Shown: positions 1 through 38,637 of the stretch, one piece after another
How positions within the stretch are numbered: position 1 is the stretch's first letter
How the letters are laid out: each line of letters begins with the position of its first letter
Source of the DNA: Elusimicrobiota bacterium
GTDB lineage: Bacteria; Elusimicrobiota; Elusimicrobia; UBA1565; UBA9628
Assembly: GCA_016218575.1 (NCBI GenBank)
Contig: JACRDN010000006.1
Location: 1 to 64,000, forward strand
Direction: 5' to 3'
Length of the DNA: 64,000 nt
Program-made: the position numbers and the translations under genes
The notes under the pieces: model-generated
What the model saw: only the letters and a program-made list of their open reading frames with translations
Database searches by the model: none
Told to the model about the DNA's origin: nothing

Positions 1-243
1 AATATGACCAACTGGCAGGCCCAGATTCGAGTTGATTTCGAGGCGCGAGGAGGGAGCAATGCCGCAGCGCATTGTGACCGACGAGCAACGAAGAAATCGG
101 CCGAAGATGGGCCTGCCCGGAGGGCCGGGGCACTTTTGGGCTGCGACTTCGTCCCTCGTCACTCACATACCGCTGCGGGTATGCTCGCTCCTCGATCCTC
201 GTCTCGCTCCAAAATTGCCCCCGCCAGTTGGTCATATTATTCC
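1..243 (-). repeat. palindromic repeat element, copy 1 (left end lies outside the window)
   Basis: The outer inverted repeat AATATGACCAACTGGC (1-16) pairs perfectly with 223-238. Inside it are two further stems: 14-23 with 108-117 (10 of 10) and 123-139 with 209-225 (15 of 17). Each encloses a conserved core carrying a 6-bp hairpin, at 57-74 (CAATGC/GCATTG) and at 166-183 (CATACC/GGTATG). It is the reverse complement of the element at 37003-37273. The potA frame stays open through it, but this is not believable as protein. Confidence 0.85.
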
Positions 244-301
244 ATTGCGAGCCCTTACCGCCGTGATTTTGTATGATTTGCCTCTAATGCAAGAAGTTGC
301 G

Positions 302-36288: not shown

Positions 36289-37002
36289 ATGGAAGGCATC
36301 GAAAGCGAAGGAAAAACAGTCGCCCAAGCCGTAGAGAACGCATTGAAAAAGACAGGGCTGCGCCGGGATCAAGTCGAGGTCCTGATTCTCCAAGAGGCCG
36401 CGGCCGGCTTCATGGGCCTCGGAGGCAGGAATGCGCGCGTGCGCATCGCGGAAAAGAGATGGGGAGCAGAAGCGCCGGCGCCTGCCCGTATGGAAGGCGG
36501 TCAGGCACCGCGGAAACAGACTCCAGCGGCCGCGGCCGTGGATCCTCAAAAAGCTTGCCACGCCGCCAAGGCCCTTGCCGCCGAGATTCTCGGGCTCATG
36601 GGTTTCAAGGACGCGGTATTGAGCGCGGAGTGGGACGATATCCAAGAAAGGCTCCTGTTGAAAGTGGACTCCGCCGATGCCAAGAAACTCGCCTCCGGCG
36701 ACGGCCGGACTCTTGAGGCCATGCAGTTCCTTTTGTCCATCATGCTCAACCGCCGCCTTGGCGCCTCCGTGGCGATTCAACTCGACGCGCTCGGCTATTG
36801 GGCCAAAAAAGAGAATGAAATCATGGAGCAGGTTCAGCGCGGCATCGACCTGGTGAAAAGTTCGCACAAGCCCTACCGCCTGCCGCCCATGGAGCCCGCC
36901 ATGCGCCGGCTCGTTCACAGGAGACTGGCCGACCACCCCGACATAGTCACGGCCTCGGAGGGAGAGGGATCTTGGCGCAAAATCGTGATAAAACCGCGCT
37001 AA
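36289..37002 (+). CDS. khpB: RNA-binding protein KhpB (Jag/SpoIIIJ-associated)
   Basis: 237 residues with the three domains of the family: Jag-N (EGIESEGKTVAQAVENALKK and AAAGFMGLGGRNARVRI), a linker, a KH domain (DGRTLEAMQFLLSIMLNRRL), and a C-terminal R3H domain (PPMEPAMRRLVHRRLADHPD followed by TASEGEGSWRKIVI). GGAGGAAGG precedes the ATG. The stop codon lies immediately before the palindromic repeat element. Confidence 0.93.
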   Translation: MEGIESEGKTVAQAVENALKKTGLRRDQVEVLILQEAAAGFMGLGGRNARVRIAEKRWGAEAPAPARMEGGQAPRKQTPAAAAVDPQKACHAAKALAAEILGLMGFKDAVLSAEWDDIQERLLLKVDSADAKKLASGDGRTLEAMQFLLSIMLNRRLGASVAIQLDALGYWAKKENEIMEQVQRGIDLVKSSHKPYRLPPMEPAMRRLVHRRLADHPDIVTASEGEGSWRKIVIKPR

Positions 37003-37273
37003 GGGGTCGCTTCATAATAATATGAGCCCTTTGCCAGGGCGATATTGGAGCGAGACAAGGATCGAGGAGCGAGCATACCCGCAGCGGTATGTGAGCGAGG
37101 AGAGACGAAGTCGCAGCCCAATAGCGCCCTGGCCCCCCTCGGGGGAGGCTCGTCTTTGGCCAATTCCATCGTTGCTCGTCGGTCACATAGCTACCGCTAT
37201 GCTCCCTCCTCGCGCCTCGAACTTGTCTCAAAGCCGAACCTCCAAATGGCTCATATTATTATGACGCGACCCC
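37003..37273 (+). repeat. palindromic repeat element, copy 2 (complete, three-way-junction shape)
   Basis: Terminal inverted repeats of 26 bp (37003-37028 with 37248-37273) match at 25 positions. Two inner stems follow: 37033-37048 with 37118-37133 (15 of 16) and 37144-37159 with 37228-37243 (13 of 16). Each encloses a core with a small hairpin: CATACC/GGTATG at 37074-37091 and CATAGC/GCTATG at 37186-37201. A CCCCC-TC-GGGGG hairpin sits at the centre. The right terminal repeat contains the mnmE start codon. Same family as 1-243, opposite orientation. Confidence 0.88.
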
Positions 37274-38637
37274 TAACGGACACCATCGCGGCCGTGGCGA
37301 CTCCGGCCGGGTCAGGCGCCTTGGGCATCGTGCGCCTAAGCGGCCCCGCGGCCCTGCCGATCGGGCAGTCCCTGCTCCGCCTCAAGGCCGACAAAGCCCT
37401 GGCGGGCAGAAGAGCGGCCTGGGCCGAGATTTTCTGGATGGGGGAACTCTTGGACGAGTGCGTGGCCACCTATTTCCCGGCCTCGGCAAGCCCGACCGGA
37501 GAGGACTTGCTCGAGCTCTCCTGCCACGGCTCCCCGTACATTCTGGGCCGCGCCCTCCAGATCTGCCTCGAGGCCGGCGCCAGGCACGCCGCCCCGGGGG
37601 AATTTACTTTGCGCTCCTTCTTGAACGGCCGCATGGACCTGGCCCAGGCCGAGGCCGTCTGCGAGCTCATCGGGGCACGCAGCCGCAGAGCCCATCGCAA
37701 CGCCCTCTGCCACCTGAAGGGAGGCCTGTCCCGCCGGATAGCGGCCCTGCGCGAGCCGATATTGGAGCTACTGGTCCGGCTCGAGGCTTGCCTGGACCAT
37801 CCGGAGGAGGACCTGCCTTCTCTATCCCCCTTGGAGCTCGAGCGGAAAGCCGCCGAAGCCGAAAAAACCCTCGCGGAGTTGGGAAAGACCTTCCGCCAAG
37901 GCCGGTTTCTGCGGCAAGGAGCGCGGGTATGCCTGGCCGGAAGGCCCAACGCCGGCAAATCCAGCCTCTTGAACGCGCTATTGGGAATCGAGCGCGCCAT
38001 CGTCTGCCAGAGCCCGGGCACCACCCGCGACACGCTGGAGGAGTGCCTGGAAATCCAGGGGCTGCCCTGCCTCCTGATCGACACCGCGGGCCTGGGCCAA
38101 AACGCCTCGGATCCTGCGGAGAATATCGGCATGGAGCGGGCTCGAGAGGCTCTAAAATCATCGGATCTCGTGCTCCTGGTCGTGGACGGATCAAGCGCCT
38201 TGGACCCCAAGGATCTGGAAGTGCACGACTCTATCCTGGGCATGGCGCGGGAAGGGGGATGCCAGACTCTGGTCGTGCGCAGCAAATCCGACCTGCCTTC
38301 GCGGGTCAATGGCCTCTCCTGCGACGCCGCGGTCTCGGCCAAGACCGGAGAGGGCCTGGGCGGACTGTCCCGGCTCGTGGTCGAGCGCCTGGCCGCGCCC
38401 GAGGAGCAAGGAGAGACGCTGGTCGTGACCTCCCAGCGCCATATCCGCTCGCTCGATGACGCGGCCAGGGAGCTGGCCCTGGCCGGACACACTCCCGCGC
38501 GGCATCCCGGCCGCTGGGAGGACCGCGCCGCCTGCCATTTGCGCCAAGCCCTGCAAGCCTTGGACGAGATAACGGGGCAGGGCGCGCCGGACGAGGTCCT
38601 GCGCGAGGTATTCTCGCGCTTTTGCATCGGAAAATAA
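37261..38637 (+). CDS. mnmE: tRNA modification GTPase MnmE
   Basis: With MnmG it installs the cmnm5 group on wobble uridine. The 458-residue protein has the N-terminal TrmE domain (DTIAAVATPAGSGALGIVRL, ELSCHGSPYILGRALQICLE, GEFTLRSFLNGRMDLAQAEA), a G domain with GRPNAGKSSLLNALL, DTAGLGQNASDPAENIGMER and a weak NKxD equivalent, and the C-terminal FCIGK with the functional cysteine. The start codon and first four codons lie within the terminal repeat of the palindromic element, and no Shine-Dalgarno is present. Confidence 0.95.
   Translation: MTRPLTDTIAAVATPAGSGALGIVRLSGPAALPIGQSLLRLKADKALAGRRAAWAEIFWMGELLDECVATYFPASASPTGEDLLELSCHGSPYILGRALQICLEAGARHAAPGEFTLRSFLNGRMDLAQAEAVCELIGARSRRAHRNALCHLKGGLSRRIAALREPILELLVRLEACLDHPEEDLPSLSPLELERKAAEAEKTLAELGKTFRQGRFLRQGARVCLAGRPNAGKSSLLNALLGIERAIVCQSPGTTRDTLEECLEIQGLPCLLIDTAGLGQNASDPAENIGMERAREALKSSDLVLLVVDGSSALDPKDLEVHDSILGMAREGGCQTLVVRSKSDLPSRVNGLSCDAAVSAKTGEGLGGLSRLVVERLAAPEEQGETLVVTSQRHIRSLDDAARELALAGHTPARHPGRWEDRAACHLRQALQALDEITGQGAPDEVLREVFSRFCIGK

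Follow-up and report, generated by a model that had tools for sequence, protein, structure and literature searches.

The window, a stretch of 64,000 nucleotides whose first base is also the first base of contig C6 in a 2.82-Mb Elusimicrobiota genome of 23 contigs, contains two copies of a repeat that are about 80% identical and inverted relative to each other. Copy 1 (positions 1-254, subfamily A, no strand) lies at the very edge of the contig. Complete copies elsewhere in the genome, 98-99% identical to it, begin 13 nt further to the left, and these left 13 nt are absent here together with the left target-site duplication (TSD). What remains of its left terminal inverted repeat (TIR; GGGCTCGCAATGRAATAATATGACCAACTGGC in full in other copies) is the inner part only (1-18, plus strand), which pairs with the right TIR at 225-254 (minus strand). 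Enclosed by the TIRs are two modules of ∼100 nt each that are inverted relative to each other: module Y (16-116, plus strand, 93.7 bits against our covariance model), which comprises an outer stem, a ladder of tandem G.A mismatches and a hairpin, and module X (124-224, minus strand, 91.3 bits). The ladder core of module Y (37-95, plus strand; core columns 24-82 of alignment A1, with pairs that covary) consists of TTCGAGGCGCGAGGAGGGAG, a hairpin with arms CAATGC (57-62) and GCATTG (69-74), and TGACCGACGAGCAACGAAGAA. The TSD on the right side is TTA (255-257, no strand), which follows the same TNA rule as in complete copies, and its left partner lies beyond the contig end.

Copy 2 (37003-37273, subfamily B, no strand) is complete, has the opposite orientation to copy 1, and sits between two genes. 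Upstream of it is jag (36289-37002), the product of which carries Jag_N and R3H domains and the stop codon of which is also the left TSD of the element (TAA, 37000-37002, plus strand). The left TIR (GGGGTCGCTTCATAATAATATGAGCCCTTTGC, 37003-37034, plus strand) is 94% complementary to 37243-37274 and is followed by module X (37033-37133, plus strand, 94 bits) and module Y (37144-37242, minus strand, 100.4 bits), the latter with the hairpin arms CATAGC/GCTATG. The right TIR (37243-37273, minus strand) is followed by the right TSD (TAA, 37274-37276, no strand) and provides the beginning of the mnmE frame, from its ATG (37261-37263) through the first codons, MnmE domains being found in the ORF from 37261; copy 2 has apparently taken the place of this gene's start region. 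The original prediction of two copies built to one plan thus describes both elements, with the amendments that copy 1 ends at 254 rather than 243 and is cut by the contig edge on its left. The two pairs of hairpin arms are as predicted, and what had been taken for outer arms is the inner part of the TIRs.

Applied to the whole genome, a covariance model built on half an element (∼100 nt) defines a family of 60 modules, and a DNA search with the repeat itself matched 55 stretches. Once pairs and contig-end fragments are reckoned in, the genome holds ∼30-40 elements, which are non-coding and present as dispersed, near-identical copies. Complete copies measure 268-271 bp, with TIRs of ∼30 bp in all. 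Many contig ends lie within element copies, which explains why copy 1 is without its left 13 nt. Another multicopy repeat breaks the assembly at the ends of contigs C5, C18, C19, C20, C21, C22 and C23 of this genome, G000 (L300-L316), with a gene start (MKNSKEVVTQGN) and inner repeats (GCGTAACCT); considered as a member of the same family, it proved unrelated, its ends being unlike those of the element described here.

The subfamilies differ at their ends (A, GGGCTCGCAATGRAATAATATGACC; B, GGGGTCGCGTCATAATAATATGAGCC; C, GGCCCTGTCAAGTAATAATATGATCAA), and rarer copies start with GTGT. The target-site duplications that the original prediction proposed to look for are present: in this genome, the intact copies of subfamilies A-C have a 3-bp TNA duplication (TAA, TTA or TCA) at their borders, the left and right triplets agreeing in 15 of 16 copies, and about half of the sites coincide with the stop codon of a neighbouring gene. 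Copies with GTGT ends are placed within CTAG. Being non-coding and recently dispersed, with long TIRs and 3-bp TNA duplications, the repeat is by structure a MITE (a non-autonomous DNA transposon), the miniature mobile element that had been named as one candidate. Several variants accompany the complete copies. A TIR-only deletion derivative (L032, C22:40090-40135) forms a perfect 46-bp TIR-TIR palindrome with the TSD TTA, a 38-bp TIR-only remnant (L031, C14:133603-133645) fits slippage at GGGC, and four loci (L025, L027, L029 and L090) carry extra hairpins, placed either between modules or within one, which are repeated in several copies.

The fold of each module runs from an outer stem through a helix, where up to five tandem G.A mismatches are interleaved with Watson-Crick pairs, to a hairpin. 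This fold was derived with RNAalifold from a MAFFT alignment of 16 diverse modules, structure being unused in the aligning. The consensus has 20 pairs, 14 of them changed on both sides, with the Watson-Crick pairs parted by 2x2 internal loops; these loops are tandem G.A/A.G steps, five per full module, in contexts such as CGAG. In the 16 modules the consensus pairs were formed in 97.8% of cells, a share that fell to 40% or less on a shift of 1-3 columns, and the covariation score was reached by none of 500 shuffles, which bears out the earlier observation that the stems differ between copies and still pair. The ladder is equally evident in a larger set of 156 unique cores from several phyla, where its nine pairs are Watson-Crick in 83% of cases in register vs 19-26% out of register; pair 40-65 is GC 62 times and CG 58 times, and pair 32-73 is GC 89, TA 27 and AT 14 times. 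In 104 unique cores, pair 36-69 has an intact tandem G.A step to either side, and even there it varies (GC 54, AT 21, CG 20, TA 1). Isolated paired changes of this kind point to selection on the folded form, as had been proposed, because arm-to-arm copying would also have repaired the adjacent mismatches. In some modules the ladder is partly or wholly an ordinary helix (L077, L079 and the outer parts of Bacteroidales modules), and since these modules swap the one for the other, what has been conserved is the helix rather than just the G.A letters.

The three-way junction of the original prediction fares less well as a description of the whole element. Covariation upholds the local fold of each module, whereas the minimum-energy fold of the entire two-module element is one long hairpin, so that the junction is one possible state among others and the conserved unit is the single module.

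Beyond this genome, the module occurs in 60 of 147 relatives, distributed patchily over many families of the class. The search for further copies by covariance model, which the original prediction had suggested, has therefore turned up a family that extends well past the two copies in the window; its stems pair, and it is not confined to one duplicated region. Listed matches to a strict DNA pattern of the core include Elusimicrobia, Muribaculaceae, Prevotellaceae, other Bacteroidales, Thermodesulfobacteriota, Desulfocapsaceae, Myxococcales, Gemmatimonadetes and Verrucomicrobiota; the same pattern had no match in viral contigs, and BLAST gave none in plasmid collections. In Bacteroidales, Desulfobacterota, Myxococcota, Gemmatimonadota and Verrucomicrobiota the module is found singly or doubled behind unrelated ends. 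Elements of these other phyla mostly have one module (∼160-200 bp in total) and quite different TIRs, and many again show TTA/TAA duplications. Among the cultured hosts, Paramuribaculum intestinale DSM 100749 (Muribaculaceae) carries a module (L196). Their single modules have the same local fold, with 93.4% of cells paired compared with at most 42% when slid. No Rfam family matched the module at gathering or relaxed thresholds (weak miRNA matches fell far below the cut-offs), nor did we find in the accessible literature any description of such a conserved, covarying, tandem-G.A module common to several phyla and end types.

Two groups of these elements deserve mention for their ends. In a cultured Muribaculaceae isolate, ∼24 of 25 TIR pairs (counted by eye from the TIR listing, with a sign test applied) have the direct repeats TTA or TAA. 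Derivatives of 139 bp, recognized by TIR spacing, recur in the Muribaculaceae isolate G147 (L289, C1:43170, C2:58862 and C17:23442), and L289, the only one of them that was read, is without a module core between ATGAG repeats; such derivatives may have been transposed as they are or may have arisen repeatedly, both being possible. Four module-bearing elements of Gemmatimonadetes (L127, L129, L188 and L205) have ends of the form CAGTCCGTGGCAAAACCC and no clear TNA duplication, and perhaps represent a third mobilizer class.

The most plausible mobilizers of the TNA-flanked copies were found among insertion sequences (IS) of the ISAzo13 family (PF07592), which are present in 8 of the 147 relatives. 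One complete element (G078:C181) has the ends GGAGCCGTTACGAAATAAGTTGAACAAC and GGAGCCGTTACGAAATAACCTGGACAAG and is flanked by TTA on one side and TAA on the other, which is not a direct repeat, and that of G002 has ends GGCCTCGTTAAAGAATAACTGATTCATC, adjoining TTA or TAA. Identity to IS ends, in register, extends over 15 nt (AAATAAGTTGAACAA) at a MITE end from a deltaproteobacterium and over 16 nt (CGTTAAAGAATAACTG) at one from a relative, while the longest in-register match in 300 rounds with shuffled ends was 12. Judged by this likeness of sequence, the in-register ends support ISAzo13-type mobilization of the TWA class. The CTAG class presumably uses another transposase, for which IS630 would be our guess from its known CTAG/TA target. 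A module search of 15 ISAzo13-family IS loci found none, so the module is an addition to these ends, not an IS remnant.

A direct pairing of MITE and IS was not encountered in the genomes searched. The PF07592 transposase was not found in this genome, nor in 16 element-bearing genomes of other phyla, where the search controls were also unmatched though the same model had matched in the relatives; and no genome was found in which an IS and a MITE share the same full end, the G078 IS end having been sought in five genomes. TIR searches for an autonomous partner gave only MITEs and remnants, both in this genome and in the Muribaculaceae genome, and a lone TIR pair ∼1.2 kb apart in the latter encloses pyrH, not a transposase. 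Two other transposase families were considered and set aside. IS4/IS5 (DDE_Tnp_1, PF01609) is absent from this genome, G001 and G038 and present in the element-bearing genomes G016, G051, G054 and G147, and Harbinger-type transposases (DDE_Tnp_4, PF13359) are absent from this genome and from all nine element-rich genomes examined. A match to a Y1 transposase in G073 (L265, ∼1195-1902) is enclosed by inverted repeats of 18 bp (GTGTCTGTCCCTATTTAT), themselves flanked by TA, and looks like an element of its own.

The original prediction had also raised a REP-like tyrosine transposase as the agent of spread. REP, BIME and REPIN sequences are hairpins with a GTAG foot and have no TSD. Like the elements described here, those associated with RAYTs are imperfect palindromes, often paired and inverted, and intergenic, and genes of the REP-type Y1 (RAYT) transposase (PF01797) are common in the class and somewhat more frequent where the element occurs (about 44 of 60 element-bearing vs 42 of 87 other genomes). 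Our elements, however, have long TIRs and TSDs and no GTAG foot, and the element-rich genomes G004 and G038 gave no Y1 match, which means that Y1 is common but not required; we regard a REP/REPIN-like element moved by Y1 as very improbable. Somewhat less remote, though still improbable, is an element without function, which would spread through its ends only and owe its paired changes to the copying of one palindrome arm from the other, through gene conversion or template switching. Palindromes are known to mutate by template switching, and a perfect helix does replace the ladder in L077 and L079. Such copying, however, sits poorly with the covariation of single pairs isolated by G.A mismatches that were left uncorrected, and with the conservation of the mismatched G.A positions themselves across phyla. 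Nor have the modules been homogenized, X and Y of one element being hardly more alike (0.60) than X and Y of different elements (0.58).

A more serious alternative is a role as RNA: transcribed through adjacent genes or from a promoter of its own, the module would form a G.A-laddered hairpin to which a protein binds, or which shields transcripts or ends them, insertions being tolerated or even useful. Tandem G.A steps are stable in RNA too, but the structured RNA of the original prediction is the less favoured reading. Copies are mostly intergenic (7 of 108 inside ORFs), which would suit a transcribed hairpin, and the G.A strand agrees in sense with the flanking genes somewhat more often than it opposes them (23 vs 12), but this orientation bias is not significant (p=0.09) and there is no enrichment between convergent genes. 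Two-module elements, moreover, have one module per strand, Rfam has no match, and among the exceptions to pairing G.T (58) was no more favoured than A.C (49), where an RNA might have shown G-U. Bacteroidales are an exception, with T-G frequent at two pairs, and this counts against a DNA-level reading because RNA would also tolerate T-G. On balance we consider a role as RNA possible but unlikely.

The strandedness of the fold points in another direction. The fold calls for G.A mismatches, in place of which the complementary strand would have C.T; only one strand of a module can therefore adopt it, and this suits a structure of single-stranded DNA rather than a symmetric cruciform. Of 49 loci of single-module copies where the GC skew is clear, 38 have the G.A-capable strand on the C-rich strand (p about 1e-4, in a post hoc comparison), the bias having the same direction in four groups and being tied in a fifth (Myxococcales, 2 loci); without a skew threshold the count is 56 of 84 (p 0.003). 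Given this GC-skew strand bias, the lack of preference for G.T over A.C and the non-significant gene orientation, we favour a module that acts at the DNA level, most likely through end pairing or replication-linked mobility.

The explanation that we propose, and to which we assign a probability of roughly 0.55, is that the repeat is a MITE whose internal module works as folded DNA, with the GG/GA ends mobilized in trans by the ISAzo13 family and the GTGT ends by another enzyme. According to this model, ISAzo13-family DDE transposases would cut GG/GA-ended copies at TWA, and a different enzyme would insert the GTGT-ended copies at CTAG. The module on one strand would fold, when single-stranded, into a stable G.A-laddered hairpin. 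In an element whose length is below or near the persistence length of DNA, the folded module could draw the two ends together for synapsis; alternatively, it may mark a replication-linked single-stranded state. A folded module would help any of several transposases to mobilize the element and would for this reason be kept while ends and transposases change. This role in transposition is putative, and the recurrence of the core-less 139-bp derivatives in Muribaculaceae warns against a strict need for the core. More tentatively, and at somewhat less than even odds, the ladder hairpin may be a single-strand-folding DNA module that is a passenger among MITEs of at least two transposase classes in several phyla, kept because it promotes mobility whichever transposase is at work.

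Bacterial MITEs include Chunjie of Geobacter uraniireducens and QMITE2 of Coxiella (PMC10969869). The elements studied here resemble such MITEs in being shorter than 350 bp, non-coding and mostly intergenic, in having TIRs and TSDs, and in occurring in dozens of copies with deletion derivatives. They differ (Chunjie being compared by description) in that the internal module has retained both its sequence and its fold in several phyla and behind different kinds of end, and does not come from the interior of an IS. With the ISAzo13-family IS they share the layout of the ends (a G-rich 12 bp, then AAATAA and a TGAAC-like motif), the TWA flanks and, for two of them, the in-register identity of 15-16 nt given above, but these IS are ∼1.2 kb long, encode a transposase and are without the module. 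The attC sites of integrons may offer an analogy in working only: they too are imperfect hairpins in which mismatches favour the folding of one strand, and act as single-stranded DNA. The elements here have neither integrase nor attC boxes, and we claim no homology.

MITEs are usually held to be decayed insertion sequences with an unimportant interior, whereas here the interior, with its unusual fold, is the conserved part, across several phyla and with differing ends and target sites. That the same shape is kept in several phyla while the ends and the likely enzymes differ suggests that the folded piece itself is what selection preserves. The covariance model also provides a strong means of annotating a common and hitherto unannotated repeat of Elusimicrobiota, Bacteroidales and Desulfobacterota. 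If mobility does benefit from the fold, this would reveal how elements of so small a size manage to pair their ends, and the fold would rank, in kind with the attC sites of integrons, among the DNA structures that transposition or replication reads.
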